Positions 856-22,049 of a stretch of 22,049 bases of DNA are shown here, piece after piece. Made by a program: the position numbers and the translations under genes. Below the pieces are notes generated by a model. It made no database searches. It was not told the origin of the DNA and was given only the letters and a program-made list of their open reading frames with translations. How positions within the stretch are numbered: the first letter of the stretch is position 1; the number at the start of each line of letters is the position of its first letter. The stretch is from a virus: positions 1 through 22,049 of the IMG/VR virus record IMGVR_UViG_3300004806_000103; one strand, 5' to 3'.

Positions 856-874
856 AATAACATTGTGCTAAATC

Positions 875-898: not shown

Positions 899-935
899 TG
901 TAAAAAACTTGATCCGCTAATGCGTGAGGTAGATT

Positions 936-1778: not shown

Positions 1779-1788
1779 TGAGCTAGGG

Positions 1789-1805
1789 CCTTATTTGGAA
1801 TAAGG
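1789..1805 (+). promoter_or_regulatory. Hairpin covering the coat gene ribosome-binding region
   Basis: CCTTATT (1789-1795) and AATAAGG (1799-1805) form a perfect 7-bp stem with a 3-nt loop directly before the coat ATG at 1808. The right arm contains the AAGG most similar to a Shine-Dalgarno, only two bases from the start codon, while GGA at 1797-1799 lies at a more usual distance but is in the loop and stem edge. Translation of the most abundant virion protein may therefore depend on unfolding of this stem, for example by ribosomes finishing the scaffold gene at 1778. Confidence 0.5.
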
Positions 1806-1807
1806 TC

Positions 1808-3085: not shown

Positions 3086-3098
3086 GGAGGGACTTATT

Positions 3099-3530: not shown

Positions 3531-3539
3531 GGGGGAATC

Positions 3540-4192: not shown

Positions 4193-4194
4193 TC

Positions 4195-7750: not shown

Positions 7751-7755
7751 TATCT

Positions 7756-9246
7756 ATGCCTGATTACAGTTTTTTAGCTCAGGGCGGCGGATTCAAGCCT
7801 AGCGAATTGCTTAACATGGTGTCCTCGGTTAAGCACATCCAGGCCCAAGATATTGAAAATGAACGCCAACAAAAATTGCTGGACGAGCAAAATCATATTC
7901 GCGATATGGCTAAAAACGGTTTTTCAGAATATTTGAACGAAAATCAGCAATATGACTGGCCAAAATTAAGCGCTGATGTTTTAAAAGGCGCGCCGACTAT
8001 AGGCGCTGAACACATCAGCGGCCTATATAATGCCGATCAAAACAACATTGCCGCCAAGCAAGCGTTATCTGGCTTTAACCAACAACAGCGCACATTTATT
8101 GCTCAGGAAGTTTTAGCCACAGGTGGAACGCCGGAAGAGCAGTATTCAGCAATTGAAAAGCGCTTTTCCGGCAATCCAGATGCCGCGCCAATATGGAAAG
8201 CAGCCAGCAACCGGTTTTCAAGTCTATTGCAATCGCCAAGCATGACGCCAGAAGCGAAGGTTAAGGCCTGGAATGATCTCAAAAATCAGTTTGGACAGGC
8301 TATTCTCAGTGTACCGGATCAAAACGCCATCCGGCAACCGCAAGGGCCGACATTCAACAACGGACAGACTCAGGTCATGTACAACGCTAACCCAATGGCG
8401 CAAATCAACGGGCAGCCTGTGCCGCAAAATCAGCCGGTAATAGGCGTTCAAAATCAGATTACGCCTAGTGAACAGCATCAGGTTGGCGGCACTGGAATCA
8501 ACGGCTTGCCTTTTCAGTTCGAGCGCGGCCCAAATGGCGAATTTATCCAGGTTAAGCCCGTTCCCGTCCAAGGCCAGCCACAAATCGGCCCGATGTTTCC
8601 AGGCCCTGGCGAAACGCCGGAAACTGCCCATAATCTTTATGGCGCACGGGATACCGCCGCTCAAGCGGCTCAATCCGTGCCGCGTGAACATTACAACAAC
8701 GAAAGTATTTTAAATTTATTGGATGCGGTCGAAAAAAACGGCGACCTTAGCCCGACCGGTTCTAACGCCATGCTGATTAAACGGGTGGGTAATATTTTTG
8801 GTAATCCTGGCGTTTTGACTGACAAAGCGGCTTTGGTCGATACACTTAACCATTACATCAGCCAGAATACCGCGGCATTGAATGCCGAAATGGGAACACA
8901 TACCAACCTTGAAATTCAAAATAATGAAATTCAATCAGGCAATACTCAGATGGCGGCAAAAGCCCTAAAACGCGCCGTCAGTGACTTGGATGCTTTAGCT
9001 GCCGGTAAACAAGTATACGCCGAAGGCTTTAACAAAGCGGCTCAAAAAGGCCCGCAGGCGATGCGAGAATTTATCACTAAATGGCCTGAAGCTTTTAGCG
9101 TTGAAGCTATGCGTCTGTATCGATTATCAAAAACAAGTCCTAAAGATGCAGCCGCGTTCGTTGAAGAAATGGGTGGCCAAAATTCTGAGCGCATGAAGGA
9201 AATCGAGCGCAGTTACAACGCCATGAAAGCAATGTCGGGGCAATAA
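7756..9246 (+). CDS. Ejection-type internal virion protein, P22 gp20 position
   Basis: 496 residues, soluble, with a Gln/Asn-rich helical N-terminal third (coil-like QAQDIENERQQKLLDEQNH), a Pro/Gln/Gly-rich low-complexity middle (about residues 190-290) and a helical C-terminal third. No catalytic motif or membrane segment is recognisable. It lies between the gp7-like gene and the transglycosylase-bearing gene, the place of P22 gene 20 (471 residues), so an internal capsid protein injected with the DNA is inferred. It overlaps the next gene by one base (TAATG at 9244). Sequence alone would not identify it; the call depends on gene order, length and composition. Confidence 0.6.
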   Translation: MPDYSFLAQGGGFKPSELLNMVSSVKHIQAQDIENERQQKLLDEQNHIRDMAKNGFSEYLNENQQYDWPKLSADVLKGAPTIGAEHISGLYNADQNNIAAKQALSGFNQQQRTFIAQEVLATGGTPEEQYSAIEKRFSGNPDAAPIWKAASNRFSSLLQSPSMTPEAKVKAWNDLKNQFGQAILSVPDQNAIRQPQGPTFNNGQTQVMYNANPMAQINGQPVPQNQPVIGVQNQITPSEQHQVGGTGINGLPFQFERGPNGEFIQVKPVPVQGQPQIGPMFPGPGETPETAHNLYGARDTAAQAAQSVPREHYNNESILNLLDAVEKNGDLSPTGSNAMLIKRVGNIFGNPGVLTDKAALVDTLNHYISQNTAALNAEMGTHTNLEIQNNEIQSGNTQMAAKALKRAVSDLDALAAGKQVYAEGFNKAAQKGPQAMREFITKWPEAFSVEAMRLYRLSKTSPKDAAAFVEEMGGQNSERMKEIERSYNAMKAMSGQ

Positions 9247-11531
9247 TGGAAGATTTCGGCGCTATCATGGCGCGAGTCAAAGAAGCAGAACCCAAAGATA
9301 ATCGCGCATTTTCGCCCGAAAAAACTTACGGTACACATCCTAAGTTATTGGACAATTTGCGCCAAGCGGAAAGCGGCGGGAATCCTTACGCCATTAACCC
9401 GAAAACCGGCGCAATGGGGCCTTATCAATTTATGCCTGATGTGGTGATGGAGTACCGCAAAAAAGGCATGGAGTTCGACCCATTTAACGAACACGAAGCC
9501 CGTGCCGCCGCCGATTATCATTACCAAACAATGCTGGAGCGCGCGAAAGGCGATCATCCTAAGGCCGTGATGTTGTACGGCGGCTTTAAACGCACTGACC
9601 CGACTCAATACGTTAATAAGGTACTCGAAGGCGTCCCAACCGAAAAAGACCAGCCACAAAGCGGTCTTGAAGATTTTAGCGCTATCATGGATAGAGTGAA
9701 ACAGGCCAAAACGGAACAGGAAGTTGCCAAAAAACCAGAAAACGTAATTGATACCGCCGCCGGTAAAGTATTGCAATTCGGAAAGGATGCTGCCAAAGCA
9801 CAAGCCGATTATCTGCGGATGGGTGCTGGGGCGGCGGCCCATGCCTTAACAGGCGCGGCGGCCACTGTTGGCGCAGGTATTGGTGGCCTGTATAAACTCG
9901 GTGAAGGCCATGATTTGCATAGCGCGGTTGAAGCGTCTATTCCTTGGCAACATCAGGCAATGAAAAACCGGACATTCCAAGGCGAACCCGGAACGCCTGA
10001 ACGCGCCGGTTCTGATGTAGTTGATAAAATCGGTGAAGTTATCAATTACCCGGCGCATTGGGCGGATGTAAAGCTGCATGAGGCCGGCCACCCCATTGCC
10101 GGAAACTTGGTTCAAGCCGGCGCTAACCTAGCCGGCTTATTGTTGCCTGCTAAACGGCTTGGCGTTATTGAAAAAGCTGCGCCTGAAGCGGCTAATTATG
10201 GAACAGCCGGCGCGGCTTCCGCTAAATTTTCAGAGCGGGCGGCGGCAATGGGTATTGATCCAATCACACAGGCGGAAATAGCGGCAGCCGAAAAAGCGGG
10301 GCAAATAAACCCGACCGCCGCCGAACGTCATTTAGATGCTTTGTCATTGCCGGAGCCGGTCAGATTAACTGAAGGCCAGGCGACAGGCGATATTATTCAC
10401 CTCAGCAATGAACAAAACCTTCGAGCTAAACATCCAGAATATGCACGTCGATTTAATGAACAAAACCGCGCTTTGGGTGAAAATTTTGAACATTTCCATG
10501 AGCAGGCCGCGCCGGATATTTATACCACGTCAGCCTATGAAAATGGTAAGCAGTTAATTGAAGCCTATAAAACCAAGGACGAGGCATTGCGCGCTGACAT
10601 TTCCGCCAAATATAAAGCGCTTGAGGACGCGAACGGCGGTCAATTTCCCATGCCTGGCAAATTATTTGTTGAAACTGCTAACGCTGAATTGCATAAACAC
10701 ATGAAAGGCGAGTTTTTGCCTTCACCTGTCAAAAGCATTATGCAAAATGTTGTCAAAAAGAACCACATGACTTACGAGCAGTTTGAGAATTTGCGAACTA
10801 TTTTGGCAGCAGAAATTCGTAAATCCGAACGCCACGAAGATGGGAATAGGACTTATGCGTTATCAATTGTGCGCGATACATTGGAACAAATGCCTATATC
10901 GGAAGCTACGTCTGAAATTAAGGCAATTGCCGATACAGCCCGCAGCGCCGCTAAAGCACGGTTTGATTTGTTACGTGAAGACCCGGCCTATAAAGGCGCG
11001 ATTGATGAAAAAAGCTTGGCAGATGATTTTGTCAGAAAACATATCATTAATGGCAAAGTCGAACATATCGAAACAATGCGTAAAAACTTGGAACATGACC
11101 CGCTGGTAAGTCAGGCTATTGCTTCCAGCGTCATTCATCACTTAAAAGAACGCGCCGGTATCCATGAAAATGGCGGTAATTTTTCGCAAGCCGCCTATAA
11201 CAAAGCTTTGCGCCAAATTCAGCCAAAATTGAAGCATTTATTGCCGCCCGATATGATCGAACACGTTGAAAAATTAGGTAGAGTGGCGCAATACGTGAAT
11301 GAACAGCCGCGCGGGTCGTTTGTAAATAACTCAAATACTGCCGTAAACATGCTGGCCGAACATTTTCAGGGCGCAGCCGAACATATGCTGAATAAAGCAA
11401 CTGGCGGCATTGCTGGGGCACTCAAAGAACGGTCGCGGCAAAAGAAAATCAATGCTCAGGTTGAAAATTCACTCGGCCCCGGCGCTGGTGTCCGGCTTAT
11501 CGACATTTCGAGAAAGCAGGGGTTGAAATGA
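9246..11531 (+). CDS. Internal virion protein with N-terminal lytic transglycosylase (SLT) domain, P22 gp16 position
   Basis: 761 residues. Residues about 30-120 form a soluble lytic transglycosylase domain: catalytic Glu42 in RQAESGGNPYAINP, then TGAMGPYQFMP (54-64), and a YGG at the end of AVMLYGG. Such domains cleave peptidoglycan locally so that the ejection apparatus can cross the cell wall. A short motif, DF(G/S)AIM.RVK, occurs at residues 3-12 and again at 143-152, flanking the domain. Residues about 190-220 are Gly/Ala-rich and may insert in membrane; the rest is long, helical and charged (roughly 330-740). P22 gp16 (609 residues) occupies this position but lacks this enzyme domain as far as I recall, so this is closer to transglycosylase-bearing ejection proteins of other podoviruses. 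Confidence 0.8.
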   Translation: MEDFGAIMARVKEAEPKDNRAFSPEKTYGTHPKLLDNLRQAESGGNPYAINPKTGAMGPYQFMPDVVMEYRKKGMEFDPFNEHEARAAADYHYQTMLERAKGDHPKAVMLYGGFKRTDPTQYVNKVLEGVPTEKDQPQSGLEDFSAIMDRVKQAKTEQEVAKKPENVIDTAAGKVLQFGKDAAKAQADYLRMGAGAAAHALTGAAATVGAGIGGLYKLGEGHDLHSAVEASIPWQHQAMKNRTFQGEPGTPERAGSDVVDKIGEVINYPAHWADVKLHEAGHPIAGNLVQAGANLAGLLLPAKRLGVIEKAAPEAANYGTAGAASAKFSERAAAMGIDPITQAEIAAAEKAGQINPTAAERHLDALSLPEPVRLTEGQATGDIIHLSNEQNLRAKHPEYARRFNEQNRALGENFEHFHEQAAPDIYTTSAYENGKQLIEAYKTKDEALRADISAKYKALEDANGGQFPMPGKLFVETANAELHKHMKGEFLPSPVKSIMQNVVKKNHMTYEQFENLRTILAAEIRKSERHEDGNRTYALSIVRDTLEQMPISEATSEIKAIADTARSAAKARFDLLREDPAYKGAIDEKSLADDFVRKHIINGKVEHIETMRKNLEHDPLVSQAIASSVIHHLKERAGIHENGGNFSQAAYNKALRQIQPKLKHLLPPDMIEHVEKLGRVAQYVNEQPRGSFVNNSNTAVNMLAEHFQGAAEHMLNKATGGIAGALKERSRQKKINAQVENSLGPGAGVRLIDISRKQGLK

Positions 11532-11629
11532 ATCTGGATTTTCATTTTTTTTCAATACCTGGCGGCGACACCAATCCAAAAAATCGTTATTGGCGCGCTC
11601 GTCTTCATCTTCAATATACCAGGGCATAA
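11528..11629 (+). CDS. Possible 33-aa micro-ORF
   Basis: An ATG at 11528 overlaps the upstream stop codon as ATGA and opens a 33-residue frame (starting MNLDFHFFSIPGGDTNP) that ends at 11629, seven bases before the next start at 11636. It fills almost all of the only gap in this stretch, and the coupling arrangement is the same as for other genes here. No family is recognised. The opposite strand also has an open frame across this gap, so the coding call is tentative. Confidence 0.35.
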   Translation: MNLDFHFFSIPGGDTNPKNRYWRARLHLQYTRA

Positions 11630-11635
11630 AACACC

Positions 11636-12985
11636 ATGAATTTAGCCTTATCGCCAATTTTTAACGGATACCAAAGTTTTTTGCCGACCGGTGCGCCTAA
11701 TTCTGGCGGTTTAATTTATACCTATTTGGCCGGATCGACCACGCCGACCGCTACTTATTTCGATTCCGCCGGCGCTGTTGCTCAGGCTAATCCTATTCCT
11801 TTGGATTCCGGAGGCCGCCCACCAGGTGAAATTTGGATAAACCCGAGCTTAGGGTATAAATTCGTATTGACCGATACCTATTTTAACGTCATTGGCACTT
11901 ATGACAATATTGTAGCAAATTCGGCTCTTTCCGGCGGCACGATGACAAACGCGCTTAACGAAGCGCCGCCAGTCACAATTGCTAGTGCTACAACCGTTGC
12001 AATAGGAGCGGCGGCGGCTAATACCATCAATATTTCAGGATCAACTACAATCGTTGCATTTGATACGATTGCAGCGGGTGCAAAAAGAACTTTAATTTGG
12101 GGCGGCAATGCTCAGTTAACTTATAACGCCACTTCGATGCAATTGATTGGCGGTGTAAATCGAGTAAATGGCGTTGGCGATATTTCTGAATTTGAAAGCC
12201 TAGGTTCTGGAAACTGGAAGGAAATAAATTATATTCCCGCTTCTGGCTGGTCTCAGAATGGAATAGCAGCGGCAAAAAATGGATTATCAATACAGACTAC
12301 CAGCTCGACTGCGCTTACTGTTACTTGCCAACAAATTAGTTTGCAAAGTTCTAAAAATTATTTAACCTTAACCGGCGTTAATTTGTCGGCTAGCATTGGC
12401 GGCACCGTTGGGGCAAATGGCTTAGATGTAGGCTCTTGGGCTTATTCAACTTGGTATGCAATTTATTTAATATATAACCCCAATACTTTTACATCCGCGT
12501 TATTGTTTTCAGCAAGCTATTACCCTTCTGGTCCAACTTTGCCATCTGGATATACTTACTTTGCTCGCATAGGCTGGTTTAAAACTGCAAGCGGTTCGGT
12601 TATTTTTAATAACCAATTTAACCAAAAAAACAGCAAAGTCATTTTGAAACAACCGGCTTTGCTTACCTCTGGCGTAGCGGGTGACGTTAATGTCCCAACA
12701 TGGGCGGTTATTTCGCCATTAGTGCCACCTACCGCGATTTCTCAAATTGTTTTAGCCAGCAATCAAACGACTAGCGGAACCGCTATTATTATGGCTGCGC
12801 CAAGCAACAGTTATGGCGCTCAAAATTCAACCAGTTACCCGGCTCCCATTTTGCATACCGGCGGCTCTGGATATTCTCAAGCCAATATTATGGCGACGTT
12901 AATGCTTGAAAGTTCGTCAATTTTTTATGCCTCAAACACAGCATCAGGGTATTTATTTGCCGCTGGCTGGGAAGATAATTTTTAA
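11636..12985 (+). CDS. Tail fibre / tailspike-type protein
   Basis: 449 residues. Residues 1-95 carry the N-terminal fold seen in many podovirus fibres and spikes: FLPTGAPNSGGLIYTYLAGS, then TPTATYFDSAGAVAQANPIP, then LDSGGRPPGEIW. This domain attaches the appendage to the particle. Beyond it the protein is Ser/Thr/Ala/Asn-rich and beta, without a recognisable depolymerase motif, and ends in a segment (about 270-449) that could be the receptor-facing domain. It follows the ejection genes as tail appendage genes do. The start codon follows a gap with only a modest Shine-Dalgarno. Whether it has polysaccharide-cleaving activity cannot be told. Confidence 0.75.
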   Translation: MNLALSPIFNGYQSFLPTGAPNSGGLIYTYLAGSTTPTATYFDSAGAVAQANPIPLDSGGRPPGEIWINPSLGYKFVLTDTYFNVIGTYDNIVANSALSGGTMTNALNEAPPVTIASATTVAIGAAAANTINISGSTTIVAFDTIAAGAKRTLIWGGNAQLTYNATSMQLIGGVNRVNGVGDISEFESLGSGNWKEINYIPASGWSQNGIAAAKNGLSIQTTSSTALTVTCQQISLQSSKNYLTLTGVNLSASIGGTVGANGLDVGSWAYSTWYAIYLIYNPNTFTSALLFSASYYPSGPTLPSGYTYFARIGWFKTASGSVIFNNQFNQKNSKVILKQPALLTSGVAGDVNVPTWAVISPLVPPTAISQIVLASNQTTSGTAIIMAAPSNSYGAQNSTSYPAPILHTGGSGYSQANIMATLMLESSSIFYASNTASGYLFAAGWEDNF

Positions 12986-12996
12986 AGGAGCAATGT

Positions 12997-14184
12997 ATGC
13001 CAAATTTAGGCCCAAATGTCCAGACAACGCAAAATGTGGCGAATGTGCAAGGCGTATTTGATTCGTCTGGGAAAAACTTAATTTATGCCACAGACGCCAA
13101 TGGTCATCAGTATTCATTCAATTCTCTTGGCACAATTTCTTCTTTGGCGGTTTTGCAAGCGAATTATCAGGCTGCTAATTATCAAGGATACACCGCTTTC
13201 CCGCTTGACCAAGGGGCGCAATGGGTGAGTGACGGCACTCAATGGGGTCCATCGACTTTTCCATCAGCAGCGCAAAATGTGGCGCTTACACAACCAGCGA
13301 GTGGTCAATACGCTCCTGGCGGAACAATTTTTACCTTAGCGACTTCGCCGGGTAGCACTTGCGTTACCGCGCCAAACGCATCAATTTTGTATGTGCAGGG
13401 CACAGGTCAAAGCGCACCCGCTCACCAAATTGCGCAAATTTGTTGGTACAACAACCAATTGACCGGTGCTAATTACCAAGACATAGCAAATGAAGCAAAA
13501 TGGAATGCTTCCGCGACCTCTCAGCCTTCATACGTGCAAATGTATGAAGCTAACATGAATGGCAATTTAGGTTCTGTTGGTCGGTGGACTGCACTCAATG
13601 CCCATCTTGCAGCTAACGTCGGAACGATGCTGTATGTAGTTGGTGTGAATATTTCCTTGGATGCGAACTTATCCGGTTCGATAAGCAACGCAATCCGTGG
13701 CATGGACTTTAATATCCAGAACAGCGGTGCTACACATGTCACTGTGCCGGAAGTAACTGCGATCAACTTTCCAGACCTTTCCGCGCAAAATGTGACTTCT
13801 CGGCATATTATTAACGGCGCAGATGCTGGCGCTTTAATGACGACAGCCGGGCCAGAGGTTTGGAGTACAAGCTATGCCGTATCCGCTTCGCCTAGTTCTG
13901 GCTCAACCGTGACAATCCCAGCAAATACGCAAAAAGCCTTTATCTATAATAGCGCAATTGCGGCTTTGACGGTGGCGCTGCCAGCCAATCCAGTTTTAGG
14001 CCAGGAACAGGATATTATTATTGCTGCGGCCGTCACTGTGCTTACAATGACCAACCCAAATAGCTATGGTATGCTCGGTAAACCAACTGTTATTGCCTTA
14101 CCTGGCGATGGCACTTACTACTCATTGAAAATGAAGTTCGTCAACGTATCCGGCACACCTTACTGGGTAATGTTCGGTAAATAA
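12997..14184 (+). CDS. Second fibre-type virion protein, function unassigned
   Basis: 395 residues, with a good Shine-Dalgarno (AAAGGAG about 12984-12990) after the first fibre gene. It is rich in Asn, Gln, Ser, Thr and Ala and looks all-beta, with no signal peptide and no membrane segment. Residues about 290-395 (SPSSGSTVTIPANTQKAFIY onward, ending in LKMKFVNVSGTPYWVMFGK) resemble C-terminal beta domains found at the tips of phage fibres. The N-terminal 80 residues have the pattern YSFNSLGTISSL and WVSDGTQWGP, similar to fibre-associated structural proteins. A distal fibre subunit or second receptor-binding protein is inferred from position and composition; a family name cannot be given. Confidence 0.6.
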   Translation: MPNLGPNVQTTQNVANVQGVFDSSGKNLIYATDANGHQYSFNSLGTISSLAVLQANYQAANYQGYTAFPLDQGAQWVSDGTQWGPSTFPSAAQNVALTQPASGQYAPGGTIFTLATSPGSTCVTAPNASILYVQGTGQSAPAHQIAQICWYNNQLTGANYQDIANEAKWNASATSQPSYVQMYEANMNGNLGSVGRWTALNAHLAANVGTMLYVVGVNISLDANLSGSISNAIRGMDFNIQNSGATHVTVPEVTAINFPDLSAQNVTSRHIINGADAGALMTTAGPEVWSTSYAVSASPSSGSTVTIPANTQKAFIYNSAIAALTVALPANPVLGQEQDIIIAAAVTVLTMTNPNSYGMLGKPTVIALPGDGTYYSLKMKFVNVSGTPYWVMFGK

Positions 14185-14194
14185 GGAGAAACAC

Positions 14195-14725
14195 ATGCGA
14201 TTAGAAGATTTTATTGAAAAAGGTGACGGCGTATTTAATCAGCCGTTTAACATTGGTGACAGAACAGTTGCTACTGATGGACTGATGCTGTTGTCGGTGC
14301 CGAAGATCGAAGGTTATAAAGAATTCAAATTTTCTGATGAAGTTGTGCAAAAAATGGGTATTCCATTTGACCCATCATTGCCGGTCAGCTCATTGGAGAC
14401 GGTTATCGGCTTGGCCGATTTTGCGCAGTTTCAGGGATTTTCCGATCATCAATTATTTTCTGAGCTGGTGCGTTGTCATGGCCTGGATATATGGAAACGG
14501 CAAGCTGATATTATTGCCGATGCTCCTGATTTACAGGTTGGTATTATCAATATTCAATTGCTGGAAGGCGGCCACTACATTAAGGCCGTGCCAAATGAAC
14601 AAGCGCCAAGGCTGTTGATTTTTAAATCAGGCGAAGCTTATGGCTTTATTTCACCGGTTTACATTGATATTAAATGTCCGGTGATGTTTCACTACAACAT
14701 TCCAGCAACAGTAATGGGAGTATAA
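14195..14725 (+). CDS. Hypothetical 176-aa protein with an ATDG motif
   Basis: Strong Shine-Dalgarno (AAGGAG at about 14184-14189). The N-terminal part reads FNQPFNIGDRTVATDGLMLL (ATDG at 26-29), followed by a helical segment (residues about 45-110) and a beta C-terminus (LLIFKSGEAYGFISPVYIDI). The order 'strand, ATDG, strand' with a matching final strand recalls single repeats of the DNA sliding clamp fold, and similar small proteins occur in other phages, but the resemblance is short. Between fibre and lysis genes a replication role would be odd, so this remains unassigned. No membrane segment or signal peptide. Confidence 0.55.
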   Translation: MRLEDFIEKGDGVFNQPFNIGDRTVATDGLMLLSVPKIEGYKEFKFSDEVVQKMGIPFDPSLPVSSLETVIGLADFAQFQGFSDHQLFSELVRCHGLDIWKRQADIIADAPDLQVGIINIQLLEGGHYIKAVPNEQAPRLLIFKSGEAYGFISPVYIDIKCPVMFHYNIPATVMGV

Positions 14726-15220
14726 ATGCAAAACAATACTATTGACGCCCCGCCCGGCTGGACTAAAGACGCCGCCGGTAATTGGGTGCAACAATCTAAC
14801 CCAGTATCCAGCATTGTTAGCAACGTATCTAGCATGGCGGCAACAATTGCCGCCACTGCTCAAGCACGATCAACGGAAGCCTCTACCTATGCCGGAGCGG
14901 CAATTGGCTCTACCGGCATTACCGCTGGCGATGTTGAGTCCTTAATCGGTGCAGTTGGTTTGGTGCTGGCCGGCGACATTCCGGGCGCTATTCATGCTGG
15001 GGCTTTGCCGTTATTCCGCCTTGGTACTGCCGCCGCCGCTATTTTAATTCCTGAAAGGAAACCAACCGATGACCAAATTAAAACGGCTGTTGCCGCTCTT
15101 ACTCATGACCAGCTTATTAGCTTGCTCGACCAGTCAGTTGCCGTTAGTCCCGGGGCAATTGCTACAACCGATCATAGTACCGCCTGGCAGCCCGTCAAAG
15201 TGCCAAACGCCGCCGGTTAA
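14726..15220 (+). CDS. Hypothetical 164-aa protein upstream of the lysis genes
   Basis: Its ATG directly follows the preceding stop codon (TAAATG) with GGGAG about 8 bases before it. Residues 1-25 contain a PPGWTKDAAGNWVQQSNP motif of the kind seen in short phage structural proteins. Residues 30-65 are Ala/Ser/Thr-rich, and residues about 70-109 are hydrophobic but broken by Gly, Asp and Pro, so a membrane segment is possible but not clear. The last 50 residues are translated from DNA that also encodes the o-spanin-like lipoprotein in another frame. It occupies the place of an i-spanin by overlap, but lacks the expected N-terminal membrane anchor followed by a long coiled coil. Confidence 0.55.
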   Translation: MQNNTIDAPPGWTKDAAGNWVQQSNPVSSIVSNVSSMAATIAATAQARSTEASTYAGAAIGSTGITAGDVESLIGAVGLVLAGDIPGAIHAGALPLFRLGTAAAAILIPERKPTDDQIKTAVAALTHDQLISLLDQSVAVSPGAIATTDHSTAWQPVKVPNAAG

Positions 15221-15311
15221 TTATTCTGTCGAGCAATTGGCCGGAATGTCAGATGCGGATTTACAAGCGGCAGCGGTGGCAAGGGAAACTTGGTTAAGAG
15301 ATTGTCAATAA
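15069..15311 (+). CDS. o-spanin-like outer-membrane lipoprotein (Rz1 type)
   Basis: 80 residues. The first 18 residues are a lipoprotein signal peptide (basic TKLKR, hydrophobic core, lipobox LLAC with Cys19); Ser at +2 predicts outer-membrane sorting. The mature part is proline-rich at first (VPGQLLQPIIVPPGSPS), as in Rz1-type o-spanins, then a short helix ending in WLRDCQ. o-spanins connect to an inner-membrane partner and fuse the membranes in the last step of lysis of Gram-negative cells. The gene begins inside the 164-aa gene in a different frame, with its own Shine-Dalgarno (GAAAGGAA, 15053-15060), and ends just before the holin, so the lysis context is strong. No convincing i-spanin is seen. 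Confidence 0.78.
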   Translation: MTKLKRLLPLLLMTSLLACSTSQLPLVPGQLLQPIIVPPGSPSKCQTPPVNYSVEQLAGMSDADLQAAAVARETWLRDCQ

Positions 15312-15321
15312 GGTGAAAAAT

Positions 15322-15510
15322 ATGGAAGACGCCAAATTATCTTCGGTTGCATCTTACGTCATTAGCTGCGGTTTAGTATTTGGCGATCTTTTGCACTGGC
15401 TGAACGAAAATGCCGCTGCATGTGGGGTTTTTTTGGGCATGTTGACGTACATAACTAACGTGTATTTCAGGCTGAAAGAAACTAGACGTGCTCGTAAAAA
15501 ATCTTTATAA
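15322..15510 (+). CDS. Small holin, lambdoid phage P21 S (pinholin) type
   Basis: 62 residues from the ATG at 15322. The C-terminal half, GMLTYITNVYFRLKETRRARKKSL in two parts (GMLTYITNVYF, RLKETRRARKKSL), closely follows the P21 S pattern, GFLTYLTNLYF then KIREDRRKAARGE as I recall it. Two membrane segments fit: a weakly hydrophobic Ser/Gly/Ala-containing one (about residues 6-27) and a second at about 33-49, then a basic tail. Holins assemble in the cytoplasmic membrane and open it at a set time. A GTG at 15313 would extend the protein by three residues to MKNMED, like the MKSMDK of P21, where the longer form is an inhibitor; but the Shine-Dalgarno (TAAGGTG, 15309-15315) overlaps that GTG and is best placed for the ATG. 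Confidence 0.8.
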   Translation: MEDAKLSSVASYVISCGLVFGDLLHWLNENAAACGVFLGMLTYITNVYFRLKETRRARKKSL

Positions 15511-15526
15511 ATAAAAGGCATGAGTG

Positions 15527-15994
15527 ATGGCAACTAAAGAACTTATCGCGCAGCTAAAGTTTGAAGAAGGCGAACGGCTGCACCGTTATCTTGATATTTA
15601 CGGCAATCCGTCTATTGGTGTTGGCCATAATCTAAAAACTTCACCGTGCCTTAATGGTGTAAAGATTGGCGATACAATCACCCAGTCTCAGTGCGACATA
15701 TTATTATCTATGGACGCCAAGCTAACTGAAGATCAAGTCGCCGGTCGGTGGGCCGGTTTTCGCGGACTCGATCAACCAAGAAAAGATGCTTGTTTAAACA
15801 TGGCGTTTAATCTTGGCGTTGATGGGTTTATGGAATTTAAAAATATGCGGGCGGCGCTGACTGCTAAAGACTGGCAAAAAGCGGCGGCTGAGATTAAATC
15901 TAGCCGCGCTCATGCTGAATTGCCGCACCGGTATGATCGAATCATTAGCCAGATTCTAACTGGTCAGTATTATAAGATTCCGGGCTTGGGATAA
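15527..15994 (+). CDS. Endolysin, T4-lysozyme-like muramidase (GH24)
   Basis: 155 residues, close to T4 lysozyme (164). Residues 12-34 carry the active site: Glu14 in FEEGERLHRYLD, Asp23 nine residues later, and NPSIGVGHNL, where T4 has Thr26 and this protein has Ser29. Later segments GLDQPRKDACLNMAFNLG and FKNMRAALTAKDWQKAA fit the helical lobe of the family. It hydrolyses the MurNAc-GlcNAc bond of peptidoglycan. No signal peptide or SAR anchor is present, so it should be cytoplasmic until the holin fires. ATG at 15527 is chosen because AAAAGG (15513-15518) is eight bases before it; an in-frame GTG at 15524 is the alternative. Last gene of the plus-strand operon. Confidence 0.9.
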   Translation: MATKELIAQLKFEEGERLHRYLDIYGNPSIGVGHNLKTSPCLNGVKIGDTITQSQCDILLSMDAKLTEDQVAGRWAGFRGLDQPRKDACLNMAFNLGVDGFMEFKNMRAALTAKDWQKAAAEIKSSRAHAELPHRYDRIISQILTGQYYKIPGLG

Positions 15995-16167
15995 ACACCT
16001 CCCTTTTGACCAGGTTTATTGCTATTAGTGCAATCAAGCTCATGGTCTGATGCTTTAGGGCATCTTTTATTACCACATACCGGGCAAAGTATCATTTGCA
16101 AAGAAGCAAGCTTGAATCCGTTTATGCTTATTCCTCTTAAGCATTTATGGCAGTTTAGGCAATTCAT
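15970..16167 (-). CDS. Small zinc-ribbon-like phage protein
   Basis: 65 residues with Cys3, Cys6 and Cys9 at the N-terminus, then CPVCGNKRCPKASDHELDC (Cys28, Cys31, Cys36, His42, Cys46) and TNSNKPGQKG. The block CP.CGNKRCPKA..H...C..SN.PGQ is a recurring small protein of phages and prophages, presumably zinc-binding, with no role I can cite. It is the last gene of the minus-strand run and its end overlaps the end of the convergent endolysin gene by 25 bases. Its start overlaps the upstream stop by one base, so it is translated by coupling. Confidence 0.75.
   Translation of the reverse strand: MNCLNCHKCLRGISINGFKLASLQMILCPVCGNKRCPKASDHELDCTNSNKPGQKGGVYPKPGIL
16049..16071 (+). terminator. Candidate intrinsic terminator of the late operon
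   Basis: GATGC (16049-16053) and GCATC (16060-16064) form a 5-bp stem with a 6-nt loop, followed by TTTTATT. It is 55 bases after the endolysin stop, inside the convergent small zinc-ribbon gene. The stem is short, so termination may be partial; it is the only hairpin plus T-rich run I see close to the end of the plus operon. Confidence 0.45.
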
Positions 16168-16352
16168 TAAAAATCAATTTCCGCAAGGCTTAGTTTTGCT
16201 TTTTGAATTTGCTTATCAAATTCTTGAAGACCTTTTTTAAAGTCATCAAGTTCTATTTTATTAGTACCCTTGAAAACATAAATTAAACAATCTTTTCCAA
16301 TTTCAAGTATTTCTATAAGATTTTCGATTTCTTCTTTAGGTGATATGCTCAT
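16167..16352 (-). CDS. Hypothetical 61-aa protein
   Basis: A small acidic/basic amphipathic protein (MSISPKEEIENLIEILEIG at the start) with a helical C-terminal half rich in Lys, Gln and Glu (DDFKKGLQEFDKQIQKAKL). There is one short hydrophobic stretch (CLIYVF), too short to cross a membrane. An AGGAT Shine-Dalgarno is correctly placed, and the stop overlaps the next start by one base. No family recognised. Confidence 0.6.
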   Translation of the reverse strand: MSISPKEEIENLIEILEIGKDCLIYVFKGTNKIELDDFKKGLQEFDKQIQKAKLSLAEIDF

Positions 16353-16361
16353 TTAACTATC

Positions 16362-16661
16362 CTAGGCTTTGCCTACCGGTTTCAATTGACGCTTAACTGA
16401 TTCGACTTCTGCGGTTAGTTCGGATATTGTTTCTTGAGACCTTGTTAAAAATCTATCCAAATAGCTAAAGCTTAAATTATCTGCATACAAATCAGCTTGT
16501 ACGGTTACGTCATTAAACTCTAATGTCAATTCACGCCTAAACGGCGCTAATTCTTCCTCCCTGTCTAACCGGCCTTTCTTGTAAACCGCTTGCAGCATGG
16601 CGCTAAGGTCGCCGCTCATTAAGGAAAATTCTTCAAGTTGTTCTTTTGTTAATTCAGTCAT
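16362..16661 (-). CDS. Hypothetical 99-aa helical protein
   Basis: The start at 16661 (MTELTKEQLEEFSLMSGDL) is preferred to a frame extension up to 16721 because it sits in an 8-base overlap with the upstream gene's stop and follows a GGGATGGGA ribosome-binding site. The protein is charged and helical, with a C-terminal coiled-coil-like stretch (RSQETISELTAEVESVKRQ) and no membrane segment. No family recognised; it belongs to the run of small accessory genes. Confidence 0.65.
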   Translation of the reverse strand: MTELTKEQLEEFSLMSGDLSAMLQAVYKKGRLDREEELAPFRRELTLEFNDVTVQADLYADNLSFSYLDRFLTRSQETISELTAEVESVKRQLKPVGKA

Positions 16662-17022
16662 TGATGTATTCCCATCCCTTAATATTTTTAAATAATAAAT
16701 GTTTTGCATAGCTAGGCCCAAAACATTGACCAGGAGTGCTGGTAATGTAAATAACTTTTTTATTCATATCCGGCAATGTTTCGGCAGTCCAGGTTTCGCC
16801 ATCTTGCAGCATGTGGCGCAGCTTTTTAGGCGGTTCGTTTTGAGCTTCCCTTTGTTGGTTGGCGTAGTTGATAAATTTATCAGCAACATAAAAGCAAGCT
16901 TCTATATCAGATAATTTTTTAGAAGGTTCAGAGTTAGATTCCCATGATTCAAGAATTTTAAACGCCAAATGCTCACGCATGGTCATATTTTTGGGGTAGT
17001 ATGGTAAGTTACGGTTAATCAT
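16654..17022 (-). CDS. Hypothetical 122-aa phage protein
   Basis: N-terminal half helical (REHLAFKILESWESNSEPSK), then EACFYVADKFINYANQQREA. The C-terminal half begins GETWTAETLPDMNKKVIYIT and ends GWEYIND, an arrangement of a Trp-Pro lead, beta strands and a final GW resembling the DUF551-type end of the neighbouring 135-aa gene. Small proteins of this type are widespread in phage accessory regions without a known role. A reasonable Shine-Dalgarno (AGAGAT) precedes the ATG at 17022. Confidence 0.65.
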   Translation of the reverse strand: MINRNLPYYPKNMTMREHLAFKILESWESNSEPSKKLSDIEACFYVADKFINYANQQREAQNEPPKKLRHMLQDGETWTAETLPDMNKKVIYITSTPGQCFGPSYAKHLLFKNIKGWEYIND

Positions 17023-17043
17023 TTTGTTTTATCTCTAGGTAAA

Positions 17044-17229
17044 TTATTCTGGACAGCCCCGTATTTCCCTAGTGCCACATAGGTAGCCCTGGTCTTTTGA
17101 GCGCCGCCGGTAGCCTTGGCCTTGCGTGAATACGCCAGGATCAGGCCTAGCCCAGTAGCATTTCTTAGTCGGACAATCCTTGTCGCAGACATCGACTTTC
17201 TTTTTTAGGGTTTTATCAATGACTTTCAT
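17044..17229 (-). CDS. Hypothetical 61-aa Cys-rich basic protein
   Basis: Contains five cysteines: three in VCDKDCPTKKC and two near the C-terminus (LCGTREIRGCPE), separated by a basic Arg/Lys/Gln segment. This could be a metal-binding knot, but the spacing does not fit a named zinc-finger class that I recognise. It begins three bases after the upstream stop with a weak GAG Shine-Dalgarno, so coupling is likely. Unknown function. Confidence 0.55.
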   Translation of the reverse strand: MKVIDKTLKKKVDVCDKDCPTKKCYWARPDPGVFTQGQGYRRRSKDQGYLCGTREIRGCPE

Positions 17230-17232
17230 TAC

Positions 17233-17640
17233 TCACGGCACTGGCGGCAGCTCTTGCCAGCCGATAATTGATTGCTGGTCAATGCGTATCAAGGCATTAT
17301 CACCTTCATTTATTCCCATTAGGTAATATCCTTCTGGACAATAATAGGTGTCATCCGACTCTCTGTAATCCAAAATTTCAGAATCCCAATAATCGCCCGT
17401 TGATTCCTCTGAAAATTTAAAAACATAGCGGCCACTTCGCGCAACATTTACCTTGCCGAAATTAACCAAAACTAGAATGTCACGGCCATTGTCCGGCGGT
17501 TCACTTGCGGGATTCCATTTCTGGGATTTTTTCAAGATAAACTCGGCAAACTTAATTGCCGAAATTTTTGTTATCGAATGACAACCATAAATCCCATTAA
17601 ACTTTATTTCAAATTCCTTGGAAATTTCTTCTCTGTTCAT
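17233..17640 (-). CDS. Hypothetical 135-aa protein, DUF551-like C-terminus
   Basis: The start at 17640 (MNREEISKEFEIKFNG) overlaps the stop of the 39-aa gene upstream as part of ATATGA and follows a G-rich GTGGGGG site; a longer frame up to a TTG at 17718 is less likely because it would overlap that gene. The N-terminal 45 residues are helical. From about residue 50 the pattern KWNPASEPPDNGRDILVLV and the end IIGWQELPPVP match the frame of DUF551-type domains (W.P....P..g..VLV ... GW..LP), common in phage accessory genes and of unknown function. Confidence 0.68.
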   Translation of the reverse strand: MNREEISKEFEIKFNGIYGCHSITKISAIKFAEFILKKSQKWNPASEPPDNGRDILVLVNFGKVNVARSGRYVFKFSEESTGDYWDSEILDYRESDDTYYCPEGYYLMGINEGDNALIRIDQQSIIGWQELPPVP

Positions 17641-17756
17641 ATAAGCCCCCACATTCTTGCTATTCCCCAAAAAACAAGGCCGCCCGCTCCCATTAAGTAG
17701 AATATTGTAGTACCCCAAAGCAGAATAGAATAAGCAATATCATCATATTTTTTCAT
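17637..17756 (-). CDS. 39-aa membrane micro-protein
   Basis: The frame runs from ATG at 17756 to TGA at 17637-17639 and encodes MKKYDDIAYSILLWG, then TTIFYLMGAGGLVFWGIARM, then WGLI. Apart from the first six residues and one Arg it is hydrophobic, with one long or two short membrane segments around a GAGG turn. Both ends are exactly coupled: ATGA overlap with the upstream stop at 17753-17755 and overlap of its stop with the next ATG at 17640. It fills a gap that would otherwise be about 110 bases without a gene. No family recognised; roles open to small phage membrane proteins include superinfection exclusion or envelope modification, with no direct evidence here. Confidence 0.65.
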   Translation of the reverse strand: MKKYDDIAYSILLWGTTIFYLMGAGGLVFWGIARMWGLI

Positions 17757-18268
17757 GGCAACACCACATATCCGGTGTTAAGCCATTCACAGGCTTTCTT
17801 TGCGGCTTGTTGTGAAAAAGTGACAACTTCATATCTGAATTTTATCCAACCGTCGTCGCTCCATTGTTTTGTTGTTGTATTAAAAACCAAAACATATTTT
17901 ACTTGGTCGTCATTTCCCCAATCCGCCACCCAGTCACCGTTCAGCTCCTCAGCCAAATGAAACAGCCAAAGCTGTCGGCTGATAATCTTGATGGCGCGCT
18001 CAGCTTGTTCTTCCGTATCAAATTGAGCGCCATACATTTTAAGATAGTTTGATGAATCCCCATAAAAAACTCTACCCGTTAAATCCATAGACCAATCGCC
18101 TTCTGGCGGACTCCATTTATCAGTCTTAGCAGGTTCGGGAAGGTCGTCGATTTTTTCCTGAATTTCTTGTTTCTTAGCGTCAATGTATTCAATTATTGAC
18201 TGTTTTGCTGAATAAAATAACTCATTTGCCTCTTTTAGAGTGGCGATTATTTCTTGATTATTTTTCAT
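17753..18268 (-). CDS. Hypothetical 171-aa phage protein
   Basis: Residues 1-45 are a helical, coiled-coil-like segment (ATLKEANELFYSAKQSI, AKKQEIQEKIDDLPEPA). From about residue 52 a compact alpha/beta domain follows: WSPPEGDWSMD, then GAQFDTEEQAERAIKIISRQ, a WVADWGNDDQVKYVLVFN strand block and an end with QAAKKACEWLNTGYVVLP. This domain pattern (W.P..GDW ... T.E.AE.A ... KY.V ... A...LN.G) recurs in small genes of many phages and prophages; I know no function. Overlaps its neighbours by ATGA on both sides. Confidence 0.68.
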   Translation of the reverse strand: MKNNQEIIATLKEANELFYSAKQSIIEYIDAKKQEIQEKIDDLPEPAKTDKWSPPEGDWSMDLTGRVFYGDSSNYLKMYGAQFDTEEQAERAIKIISRQLWLFHLAEELNGDWVADWGNDDQVKYVLVFNTTTKQWSDDGWIKFRYEVVTFSQQAAKKACEWLNTGYVVLP

Positions 18269-18462
18269 TGTTGTTCACCGGTGTAAAGCTTAATCGTCGC
18301 CTTAGACTGAGCTATTGCGCCTTCTTTGGTGGCTTGGCATAAGCCGCGTTTAAACCACAATAAATCTATGTCATCGCTTTCCCATCTATATTCTTCAAAA
18401 TATTCTGAATTAACAATATTGGATAGATAATACACGGCACCAACTTCCGTCGCTTCCCGCAT
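18265..18462 (-). CDS. Hypothetical 65-aa protein
   Basis: Small acidic-aromatic protein (SNIVNSEYFEEYRWESDDID, then LLWFKRGLCQATKEGAIAQS) with no membrane segment. Its stop overlaps the next start as ATGA. No clear Shine-Dalgarno precedes the ATG at 18462, which lies 13 bases after the stop of the 36-aa ORF, so it may depend on ribosomes from that ORF. The end, where an 'A.AQSKATIKL' helix leads to the C-terminus, has no family I recognise. Confidence 0.6.
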   Translation of the reverse strand: MREATEVGAVYYLSNIVNSEYFEEYRWESDDIDLLWFKRGLCQATKEGAIAQSKATIKLYTGEQQ

Positions 18463-18475
18463 AGGTTAAGGAACT

Positions 18476-18586
18476 TCAATGCCACCGATCATTGATTGTT
18501 CGTGCTTTGCGGCGGAATTCCGCATCAATGGCAGCGCCGATATTTTTAATGGCTTTCAATAAAGCATCATGTTGTTCTTTGTTCAT
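18476..18586 (-). CDS. 36-aa micro-ORF, first gene after the structured RNA
   Basis: ATG at 18586 with one of the best Shine-Dalgarno sites on this strand (GAGGA, about five bases upstream), encoding MNKEQHDALLKAIKNIGAA then IDAEFRRKARTINDRWH. It is amphipathic and basic at the end, probably a single helix or helix pair. Its ribosome-binding site begins only a few bases after the U tract of the RNA element at 18600-18695, so its translation, and that of the following coupled genes, would be cut off by termination there. No family recognised. Confidence 0.55.
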   Translation of the reverse strand: MNKEQHDALLKAIKNIGAAIDAEFRRKARTINDRWH

Positions 18587-18599
18587 AAATTCCTCGCAT

Positions 18600-18663
18600 A
18601 AAAAAAGCCGACTCCATTACCAGTTTGCACGGGAAGAGAATCCCCAGGTAATAAAATCGACTT
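18600..18663 (-). terminator. Terminator-like hairpin with U7 tract at the end of the structured RNA
   Basis: The outer stem AAGTCGA/TCGGCTT (7 bp with one G-U), an inner ATTACC/GGTAAT stem and an apical GGGA/TCCC stem are followed directly by seven Us (18606-18600). The interior is larger than in a simple terminator, so efficiency may depend on which fold the RNA adopts. Confidence 0.55.
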
Positions 18664-18695
18664 GTGTTATTTCTCTTTAACGGGTGCAAATCCGT
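18600..18695 (-). ncRNA. Candidate structured RNA (about 96 nt) with pseudoknot-forming repeats
   Basis: Predicted to start at about 18695, seven bases after the -10 box of the promoter at 18702-18729, and to end in a seven-U tract (18606-18600). In RNA order, a 5' hairpin ACGG/CCGT comes first. Two further helix sets then interleave. Set A pairs TTTGCAC (18690-18684) with GTGCAAA (18630-18624) and AAGAGAA (18677-18671) with TTCTCTT (18640-18634). Set B pairs AAGTCGA (18663-18657) with TCGGCTT (18611-18605) and ATTACC (18652-18647) with GGTAAT (18621-18616). The one imperfect pair in set B is G-U on this strand but A-C on the other, favouring the minus strand. It could be a free small RNA or an attenuator leader. 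No known RNA family recognised. Confidence 0.6.
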
Positions 18696-18701
18696 ATTGT
18701 T

Positions 18702-18729
18702 ATTTTAAGGTTTTAACAGGCTTTGTCAA
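18702..18729 (-). promoter_or_regulatory. Sigma70-type promoter for the structured RNA / small-gene operon
   Basis: On the minus strand TTGACA (18729-18724, 6 of 6 to consensus), a 16-base spacer and TAAAAT (18707-18702, 5 of 6 to TATAAT). Predicted transcription start near A18695. The -35 box lies within the last codons of the upstream ASCH-like gene and the -10 box just after its stop. It is the best promoter match I found on either strand. Confidence 0.72.
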
Positions 18730-19429
18730 CTAACTTAAATTCAATTACCCATACCCAGGGGTTCACCTTCCAAGAATTCAGCCCGTTGATTGATTCCAAA
18801 AGAGACCTATAGGATAAAATTGGTTGATTGAATGCAATTCCAGCCTTTTGTAAGAAGTTTTCATCTCTATAATCGTGGTCTGCTTGATAATCTTTCCAGC
18901 AATCAATAATTTTTCCAATATTTTCAATCCCTTCTGGTTTGTCGTCTTTTTCGCTAATATCCCGCAATCTCTCAACTCTAACTCCGGTAATTTCCAGATT
19001 GATACGGCTGGCCCAGCGCGGCATGTAGATTGATGACTTCCATTTGTCAACATAAACATCTTCAGTTGACCGAAAGTCTTTAATTAAAAACTGATTGCCA
19101 TCCTTAATCCCGATTGGAATGTTTTCACCTGTCTTGTAAAGAATAACGGGGGTTCCATCTGCTCTATGGGTTTCTGAGTACGTTTCCTTAACCCACAAAC
19201 CATCACCCAAAAAACCGTAAGGACAAAGCTCCAAAAATTCATTTGAATGTAAATGGTGCTTATGTTTTTTTGTAATTATTTCAAAACTGTTTAATGATTT
19301 CCTGTAATTTATTTCTTGTGTTTTTCCTAATTTGTTAAGTTTGTTAACAATCTGCCGTGTTTGCGTTTTTCTGCCTTCCAGTAACGCTAAAACCATCGGC
19401 GTTGAAAACAATATTGGGCATTCTTTCAT
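18713..19429 (-). CDS. ASCH-domain-like phage protein
   Basis: 238 residues. The frame PILFSTPMVLALLEGRKTQT near the N-terminus, CPYGFLGDGLWVKETYSE in the middle, then SSIYMPRWASRINLEITGVR and VERLRDISEKDD, and finally SWKVNPWVWVIEF is that of a widespread phage family with an ASCH-like (ASC-1 homology, PUA-related) fold, sometimes labelled morphogenetic protein. ASCH domains are thought to bind RNA or modified nucleotides; the role in phages is not established. The usual GRKTQTRR is GRKTQTRQ here. It overlaps the upstream ATPase stop as ATGA and its 3' end contains the -35 box of the next promoter. Confidence 0.8.
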   Translation of the reverse strand: MKECPILFSTPMVLALLEGRKTQTRQIVNKLNKLGKTQEINYRKSLNSFEIITKKHKHHLHSNEFLELCPYGFLGDGLWVKETYSETHRADGTPVILYKTGENIPIGIKDGNQFLIKDFRSTEDVYVDKWKSSIYMPRWASRINLEITGVRVERLRDISEKDDKPEGIENIGKIIDCWKDYQADHDYRDENFLQKAGIAFNQPILSYRSLLESINGLNSWKVNPWVWVIEFKLVDKAC

Positions 19430-21180
19430 GCCGCCACCCGCACAGATTCTTGGTTTACGCCGTTTTCAATCCAAACGCATTGCACAGTATCCAATAGTTT
19501 GTTTGGTGCGGTTTTCAGCGTAGCAAACAGCAGGGCCGTGTCCAGCTCTCCTGATCTAGCTAATTCATCCAGCCAATAAAACAAATCGGCACGGCCTTTT
19601 TGCTGGTCGAGCACGTCCACTCGATCTAGCACAAGCAGCTTTATGCCTGAAATAAACGCTATTGCTTCGGCAATCATTGCGTCCGCCCGCCATTGCTCGG
19701 ATTCTGACAGTAAGTTGTATGGCAGCAATTCGGCATAAATACTCATATCGTTGTCAATAGTGACAGCCATCCATTCGGCTAAATTTGCAGAATTTTTTAA
19801 CCTGTCATTGATTGGCGTCAGTACGCTTTTTAACAATTCAGTCGGTATGCCGTCCGGTGCCAGGGCGTCGGCTATTGCCGTCCAGTCCAGTATGTTAACA
19901 TGCAGCAATAGCACCTTTTTAATTTTTTCGACTTGCTCGTTATGCAATTGAAGTTGAGCGCTATATTTATTGTGATCCTGCTGCCAGGCGCTTTTTTTAT
20001 CGTTAAGAACTTTTATTTCAGCTTGAATTGCATCAATGTCAACCGGCGACTCTACTGGCAATTCATTTAATTGAATGCCGGCTTGCTCTGCTTCCGCTAA
20101 ATCGCGTTTACCATTAGCGATAGCTGATTCAAGCAACGCTAAGGCCCGTTCTTCATCCGGCAGCCGGCGCACGGCATCAATATCTGGGGTATGCAAGGGT
20201 GGCAAATATTCTTCCAGAGCGACCGGGCCGTTAGCATTAATTACTCGCAATAACTTTTTGCAACATGGGCATTCGGCACTGTCGTATTCTGGCTTTCCGG
20301 AAGCGCCTAACCGAGTGGCGGCAACCTTGTCTTGCCAGGTAATCATGTTTTCGGTATCGACGGCCAACTTGCGCCTAATCCTTTCAATTTTTCCGGCTTT
20401 TTCTTCAAGTCGCTGGCGCTTGGCAACAAGATCGATATTTTGCTGTTCGGCTTGCTTTGCCGCGCCTAATTGCTGCTGTGCGTCGGCCAATTCAATTCCA
20501 AAATGAGTGACTTGCCGTTGGGCGTTTTCAATCAGTTTTTGAATGTGCTCTGGGTCTACGGTTTGGGTTACTTCAGCCGGTTGCCATTGACCGCCTTTTT
20601 CTTTTCCCCATGTCTCGCCGCCGGTCAATGTTTTATAGCCGGTTTTGCTATCACGGGCCTTGGCTTTAGCTTCATTATGGGCGGCGTCGAATCCGGATTT
20701 TAAATACGGGGTGATTTGCTCGACTTTGGCCGGATTAAGGTTTTTTTCCAGCAATCTTTTTTTAATGGCGTCGGCGGACGTTTTAACTCCCATCAGCCCG
20801 AATAAAAATTCAGAGCGTTCTTTGGTGTTCAGGCTTGCAAAGCGCTGGGCGTTCAAAACATAGGGTAGTGCCGCCGGCGTGTTTTTACCAGCTTGGTTGT
20901 CGGTAATTTTGCCGGCCTTATTGATCGTGACGCCGTAATCCCCATCGCTGGTGGTAATTTCCACAGCGGCATACTCTTGACCAGTGGTGATCAGTTGCGC
21001 CGCGTCTTTTTTCAGGCTAATCCGCGTTAAATCAGCGGTCAGCGCCAAATTGATTGCATCGCGTACTGAGCTTTTGCCGGCGTAATTTTTGCCAGCAAAC
21101 AAGGTGATTGGCGTATTTAAGGCCGCTTTTACGCAAACAGCGCCTAGAAAATTTTGAATATCGATTGATTGGATTTTCAT
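19426..21180 (-). CDS. SbcC/Rad50-like (SMC-type) ATPase
   Basis: 584 residues. Walker A at 30-38 (GKNYAGKSS); coiled-coil stretches about 207-285 and 335-425 separated by a CPCC at 304-307 like a Rad50 zinc hook; ABC signature LSESEQWR at 491-498; Walker B LLVLD ending at Asp519. The residue after Asp519 is Arg, where SMC/Rad50 proteins have the catalytic Glu. These proteins act on DNA ends during recombination and repair, usually with a nuclease. The gene is coupled (ATGA) to a DnaQ-like exonuclease upstream and to the ASCH-like gene downstream, so it looks like part of a phage recombination module. Shorter than bacterial SbcC (about 1050), in keeping with phage versions. Confidence 0.83.
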   Translation of the reverse strand: MKIQSIDIQNFLGAVCVKAALNTPITLFAGKNYAGKSSVRDAINLALTADLTRISLKKDAAQLITTGQEYAAVEITTSDGDYGVTINKAGKITDNQAGKNTPAALPYVLNAQRFASLNTKERSEFLFGLMGVKTSADAIKKRLLEKNLNPAKVEQITPYLKSGFDAAHNEAKAKARDSKTGYKTLTGGETWGKEKGGQWQPAEVTQTVDPEHIQKLIENAQRQVTHFGIELADAQQQLGAAKQAEQQNIDLVAKRQRLEEKAGKIERIRRKLAVDTENMITWQDKVAATRLGASGKPEYDSAECPCCKKLLRVINANGPVALEEYLPPLHTPDIDAVRRLPDEERALALLESAIANGKRDLAEAEQAGIQLNELPVESPVDIDAIQAEIKVLNDKKSAWQQDHNKYSAQLQLHNEQVEKIKKVLLLHVNILDWTAIADALAPDGIPTELLKSVLTPINDRLKNSANLAEWMAVTIDNDMSIYAELLPYNLLSESEQWRADAMIAEAIAFISGIKLLVLDRVDVLDQQKGRADLFYWLDELARSGELDTALLFATLKTAPNKLLDTVQCVWIENGVNQESVRVAA

Positions 21181-21734
21181 GGCAAATCCTTAATTGCAAA
21201 ATAAATATCACGGCAAGCCAAAGCATCAGCCATAGCGCTATGAGCGTTTTCAAGCTCTTTGCCCATGAAATGTTTATAAGCTTCAGACAGTTTTGGATAT
21301 TTTCCACCAATGATTTTTTGGGTCATTTTCATGCAGCATTCAGACTGCGCAAGCTTCCATTCGTCCAATTGCTTTTCTTCAATCCCCATTTTATGCTGAG
21401 CAATCCTAACAATTCTGGAATCAAAAGATTCGTTATAAGCAACACGTTTTCGACCATCCCATAGATGAAAAAAAACAGACATTGCTTTCATTAACGGAAC
21501 TCCACAAGCAGAGGCAAAGGCAGTATCGATTCCATGTATTTGTGTTATTTCTTCTGGAATTTCATAACCATCAGGCTTGATTATTAAGTCAATGCTCTGA
21601 ATGGTTTTTCTGGTTTTTTCGTCAACCAATATAGCGGCAATTTGAACGATATGCGGCTGTTCTGGATGTTCCAACGGCTCTTTAAAAAGAGGCAAACCAG
21701 TAGTTTCTGTATCATAAAATAAAATACGGCTCAT
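21177..21734 (-). CDS. DnaQ-like DEDDh 3'-5' exonuclease
   Basis: 185 residues. All catalytic positions are visible: Asp8 and Glu10 in FYDTETTGLP (Exo I), Asp105 in VAYNESFDSRIV (Exo II), and His165 with Asp170 in NAHSAMADALACRDIYF (Exo III, DEDDh type). These enzymes degrade DNA or RNA 3' to 5' with two metal ions, as in the epsilon proofreading subunit. No polymerase-binding tail is evident. Overlap with the annealing-protein gene by one base and with the ATPase gene by four suggests a recombination or end-processing role rather than proofreading; both are possible. Confidence 0.9.
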   Translation of the reverse strand: MSRILFYDTETTGLPLFKEPLEHPEQPHIVQIAAILVDEKTRKTIQSIDLIIKPDGYEIPEEITQIHGIDTAFASACGVPLMKAMSVFFHLWDGRKRVAYNESFDSRIVRIAQHKMGIEEKQLDEWKLAQSECCMKMTQKIIGGKYPKLSEAYKHFMGKELENAHSAMADALACRDIYFAIKDLP

Positions 21735-22049
21735 TATTCAATCTCCATTCCACGGTTACGGCGCGTTTGTATTTGTGCGCTTCGGTCAAGCTCTGCATAC
21801 GCATCTAGTGGCGGTGCGTCTGGAAATTCCAGGGTTTCCGCTGGTTTTTGTTCAATCGACACTGGTTCTGGTTTTTGTTCCTGCTGCGCAATTTCGCCGG
21901 TATCGGTATTGACATCAAAATCTTGGGTAACAACAAATTCACCTTCCAGAGTAACGTGCTTTCCTGATTCAACATTGTTTGCAAAGTCAACCGCTCTTTG
22001 GATTTCGACTGAGCAAGGCATGTATTTTAAAACTTGCAGCAGTGGAACT
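21734..22049 (-). CDS. C-terminal part of a probable RecT-type ssDNA-annealing protein, 5' truncated
   Basis: The frame stays open beyond the ATG at 22021 to the window edge, reading VPLLQVLKYMPCSVEIQRAV in upstream-to-downstream order, so that ATG is internal. The 'LLKYMP.S.E.Q.A' pattern resembles the end of the RecT core (typically K..LKY.P.S.EL..A), and it is followed by an acidic, Pro/Gln/Glu-rich tail (about 75 residues), as RecT proteins often have. RecT-type proteins anneal complementary single strands. The downstream exonuclease and SbcC-like ATPase support a recombination block. Identification is limited by the missing N-terminal core. Confidence 0.55.
   Translation of the reverse strand, partial: VPLLQVLKYMPCSVEIQRAVDFANNVESGKHVTLEGEFVVTQDFDVNTDTGEIAQQEQKPEPVSIEQKPAETLEFPDAPPLDAYAELDRSAQIQTRRNRGMEIE

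Follow-up and report, generated by a model that had tools for sequence, protein, structure and literature searches.

A predicted small RNA unit with its own promoter and terminator in the tightly packed minus-strand gene array of a phage genome fragment

Within a phage genome fragment of 22,049 bases from an environmental sample (IMG/VR virus record IMGVR_UViG_3300004806_000103, positions 1 to 22,049, analysed as a whole and here called the window), a near-consensus promoter and an intrinsic terminator enclose an interval of about 96 nt on the minus strand; the sequence gives good support for a discrete unit that runs from the one to the other. We propose, tentatively and with a probability of about 0.42, that the predicted product is a trans-acting phage small RNA. 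The host-type promoter and the intrinsic terminator would yield a short structured RNA of ~96 nt that would act in trans by base pairing, regulating host or phage mRNAs; its 3' stem and U tail would protect it, and an Hfq-like chaperone would probably assist, on the A-rich linker and the U tail, these two being the only Hfq-compatible features of the RNA. The elements of the unit and the flanking reading frames are as follows.

18702-18729, minus strand: sigma70-type promoter TTGACA-16-TAAAAT (11/12), read from the sequence, with an A/T-rich stretch 5' of it
18600-18695, minus strand: predicted ~96-nt RNA, starting at A18695 and ending with the U tract
18680-18695, minus strand: 5' hairpin ACGG[AUUUGCAC]CCGU, its loop with UUUGCAC (folding)
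18684-18690, minus strand: pseudoknot partner 1, UUUGCAC, complementary to GUGCAAA at 18630-18624 (sequence)
18662-18679, minus strand: A-rich linker UAAAGAGAAAUAACACAA, mostly unpaired, its final two bases joining the terminator stem (folding)
18671-18677, minus strand: pseudoknot partner 2, AAGAGAA, complementary to UUCUCUU at 18640-18634 (sequence)
18605-18663, minus strand: terminator stem-loop, with a 17-bp stem (18663-18647 with 18621-18605) and a small apical hairpin GGGA..UCCC (z = -4.9)
18600-18606, minus strand: T7 (U7) tract (sequence)
18713-19429, minus strand: upstream ORF, a member of PHROG 874, function unknown (E = 1.9e-60)
18476-18586, minus strand: downstream 36-aa ORF, its ATG start codon preceded by AGGA and lying 13 nt past the U tract

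An earlier note on this DNA had described a near-consensus promoter firing into a transcript that starts exactly at the base of a small 5' hairpin, and both statements held on closer inspection. The -35 box TTGACA (18729-18724) and the -10 box TAAAAT (18707-18702) are separated by a 16-nt spacer, and the resulting score of 11/12 is the highest within positions 4000-22049 and the only one of at least 11/12 across the window. The predicted start, A18695, lies seven bases beyond the -10 box and is the first base of the hairpin, such that promoter, start, hairpin and U7 tract stand in exact register on one strand. The interval had also been called non-coding, which is true of the RNA itself but not of its promoter, as the upstream ORF extends to 18713 and its final codons take in the -35 box together with the 11 spacer bases (of 16) nearest to that box. 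Taken alone, an 11/12 promoter is unremarkable, as dinucleotide shuffling of the entire window yields 0.71 such sites per 22 kb; the expectation falls to 0.17 per 22 kb when a T6 tract must follow and to 0.007 when a hairpin of -18 kcal/mol or lower is required as well, a figure that serves as a guide only, since the shuffle criteria for the promoter-hairpin-U-tract unit were set after the site had been seen. In 594 kb, comprising the window and the fetched loci, this unit alone combines a promoter of at least 10/12 with a strong terminator.

The transcript predicted from this promoter is more stably folded than its composition would suggest. Its computed free energy of -30.2 kcal/mol compares with a mean of -19.2 for shuffled sequences (z = -3.8; none of 200 shuffles was as stable), and the terminator part by itself reaches z = -4.9 against its shuffles; the dense self-complementarity reported earlier is thus borne out, as is a length of about 96 nt ending in seven Us, given by the 17-bp terminator stem and a U7 tract that ends near 18600. 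A unit bounded by its own promoter and intrinsic terminator within the 50-250 nt range is what the sequence criterion for a phage small RNA describes, and such a unit is found here.

Overlooked in the earlier note were two collinear 7-nt segments, one in the loop of the 5' hairpin and the other in the linker, that are exactly complementary to the apical part of the terminator. When both regions are shuffled, such collinear complementarity occurs in only 0.00025 of cases, and the RNA region therefore appears to carry more structure than termination would call for. With the terminator arms placed both between and outside the complementary segments, the arrangement is that of a pseudoknot, and the RNA probably folds as one, judging from the complementarity and not from a computed pseudoknot energy. 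During transcription, when the nascent RNA is 72-84 nt long, the best fold uses the UUUGCAC:GUGCAAA pairing (-12.0 to -16.7 kcal/mol), and the terminator fold takes over afterwards, at -21 to -30 kcal/mol. The helix between 18690-18684 and 18630-18624 overlaps the terminator stem by only about one base and leaves the terminator arms otherwise free; for this reason we rejected a classical terminator/antiterminator pair of the kind found in a riboswitch or attenuator leader, the mutually exclusive shared strand being absent. A topological exclusion between the alternative helix and the terminator is possible.

The window carries a P22-type coat gene, and its genes face the plus strand over positions 1-15,994 and the minus strand from 16,167 on. 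The minus-strand genes include an exonuclease, an SbcC-like ATPase and the PHROG 874 gene, and we call this cluster "early-type" by inference only. The SbcC-like AAA ATPase (19426-21180, minus strand) adjoins the DnaQ-type exonuclease (21177-21734) and shares 29-36% identity with ATPases from Pseudomonas, Burkholderia and Achromobacter phages, which, beside a P22-like coat gene, points to a mosaic genome. Elsewhere in the array, within a 161-aa ORF, a symmetric hairpin at 17542-17563 (TCGGCAAACTTAATTGCCGA) has a terminator-like score on both strands.

The gap that holds the RNA unit measures 126 nt and is the only large one in this tightly packed array, where the other gaps between predicted minus-strand genes range from -68 to +40 nt. 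The product encoded just upstream had been described as ASCH-like; it has no Pfam match up to E = 5 and belongs instead to PHROG 874. Nine relatives of the gene, 31-40% identical by best segment, allow the neighbourhood to be compared: in all nine the distance from the PHROG 874 stop codon to the next frame is -4 to +30 nt, and in six of them -4 nt, the gene usually overlapping its neighbour by ATGA. Since the next frame lies so close in the relatives, the unit looks like a local acquisition between coupled genes. Downstream, a 65-aa ORF (18265-18462, minus strand) matches only the C-terminal half (residues 71-128 of 131) of PHROG 18768, and the 36-aa ORF that precedes it has no match to that family, so the 65-aa gene may be truncated; for a further downstream ORF, of 171 aa, no relatives were found.

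Searches for relatives of the RNA returned the RNA itself and little else. The earlier statement that it matches no riboswitch or known phage RNA agrees with the Rfam covariance models, which gave no match at the gathering score and none up to E = 5, and a tRNA/tmRNA search found none. With blastn, the region searched in phages and the RNA searched in phages and plasmids yielded nothing beyond short chance matches, which lay outside the RNA or had E = 4; the matches from four IMG/VR pattern scans were unlike the full RNA under a single-sequence covariance model (R1), and when 48 sources and 23 complete records of related viruses were scanned with R1, the window alone was recovered. The search for the interval in related phages, which the earlier note had suggested as a check, thus turned up no homologue in phages, plasmids, IMG/VR or the R1 set, although a model built on one sequence has low power for diverged relatives and, since several of the searches may have excluded very near relatives of this record, absence of homologues is no proof of uniqueness. 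Two scans of genome contigs, using the coat protein and the PHROG 874 protein, likewise found no relative and did not identify the host.

Base pairing with start regions of the phage's own genes was also computed. The best site for the apical segment is the start codon region of the PHROG 874 gene (-25.2 kcal/mol, the top of 1083 sliding windows), which is not significant, as 15% of shuffled controls match it; for the 5' segment, shuffled controls reach the score of the best start-region site 80% of the time, again not significant. The PHROG 874 start region is accordingly only a lead as a target. Its start codon lies inside a small hairpin, GGCATGAAAGAATGCC, at 19417-19432 on the minus strand.

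The main rival to a trans-acting RNA, on balance unlikely in our estimate, is a promoter-terminator gate or attenuated leader, in which the promoter would serve the small genes downstream, RNA polymerase halting at the terminator except when an antitermination factor or a change of RNA fold allowed it to pass, the short RNA being a by-product. The terminator ends 13 nt ahead of the ATG of the next gene, and this placement just upstream of a gene, which would fit a cis role too, speaks against the trans-acting reading. No minus-strand promoter-like site of at least 10/12 was found in the array downstream of the 36-aa ORF, and because the genes there are both tightly packed and lacking such a promoter, they probably need read-through. 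The UUUGCAC:GUGCAAA fold, best just before the terminator forms, also speaks for a gate, although it does not sequester the terminator stem. There are precedents in the pR'-tR' region of phage 21 and lambda, where a promoter, a short transcript and an intrinsic terminator stand ahead of a gene block under the control of Q (PMC6606751), and in an AlpA-controlled promoter-terminator unit in Pseudomonas (PMC9371919). The likeness to pR'-tR' lies in that succession of promoter, short transcript, terminator and gene block; unlike it, the present unit precedes small unknown genes and not late genes, no Q-like or AlpA-like protein was found among the part of the window's proteins searched (the window itself being a genome fragment), and by eye the bases transcribed first (ACGGATTTGCAC) contain no good -10-like pause element. 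A plainer account, an ordinary operon-end terminator beside a chance promoter-like sequence and with no functional small RNA, strikes us as improbable: such terminators are common at operon ends and an 11/12 site arises readily in shuffles, but a terminator requires neither the alignment of promoter, start and hairpin nor the additional complementarity, the stem here begins some 50 nt past the stop codon with the gene array continuing beyond it, and a chance promoter is unlikely to fall exactly at the only large gap and on the right strand.

Other readings start from the pseudoknot. The RNA might bind a host or phage protein, for example one of defence or a toxin, and not an mRNA, as a decoy would; the two additional, collinear 7-nt helices point to a compact tertiary fold, and a single-copy acquisition between early-type genes would suit such a role. 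We nevertheless give this little credence, as the RNA lacks tandem repeats of the type III antitoxin kind, no relatives were found, and the only toxin-like or defence-like neighbour is the SbcC-like ATPase, whose PADLOC matches seem no more specific than those of ATPases in general. The type III antitoxins ToxI and CptI resemble the present case in having a pseudoknot RNA (inferred here), a terminator and then a gene on the same strand; they differ in their tandem repeats and in what follows, which here is a 36-aa ORF without toxin similarity. A type III toxin-antitoxin system was therefore rejected, the RNA being free of tandem repeats and the 36-aa, 65-aa and main further downstream ORFs giving no ToxN/AbiQ-like match. 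It is also conceivable, though unlikely, that the unit belongs to a hitherto undescribed class of pseudoknotted phage RNAs: the 5' hairpin loop and the linker would pair into the RNA's own terminator loop, and the tertiary fold would either tune termination, acting on the genes behind it as a topological switch for antitermination, or form a compact protein-binding decoy.

Among characterised phage RNAs, OOP and sar have their own promoter and terminator, and the interval between ea10 and ral in lambda belongs to the early pL region. It is in this interval of the lambda gene cluster that PreS (LPR1), of ~88 nt, is encoded, and OOP of lambda and sar of P22 measure 77 nt and 68/69 nt, respectively (PMC12197685). 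By analogy of size and placement, PreS would be the nearest counterpart, sharing with the 96-nt RNA its short length and its place between phage genes; for PreS, however, synthesis, Hfq dependence and regulation of dnaN have all been demonstrated, whereas the 96-nt RNA is a prediction from sequence, and no sequence relatedness was found between the two. OOP and sar are alike in being short phage RNAs (68-77 nt), but OOP is antisense to the adjacent cII, while the predicted 96-nt RNA is sense, lies between genes and has nothing gene-like on the opposite strand; sar acts on the ant mRNA, and for the 96-nt RNA no such target is known.

Of the regulatory small RNA first suggested for this interval, then, the promoter-to-terminator unit stands well supported, and the role in trans is plausible only, since a promoter-terminator gate fits the same anatomy; the two can both hold at once. 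We regard the unit as a well-formed prediction of a known kind, belonging with phage small RNAs or gated leaders. If expressed, it would lengthen the short list of validated phage small RNAs by a compact, lineage-specific one, and would provide a clear example of early-type genes, otherwise overlapping, that have gained a regulatory RNA between them.
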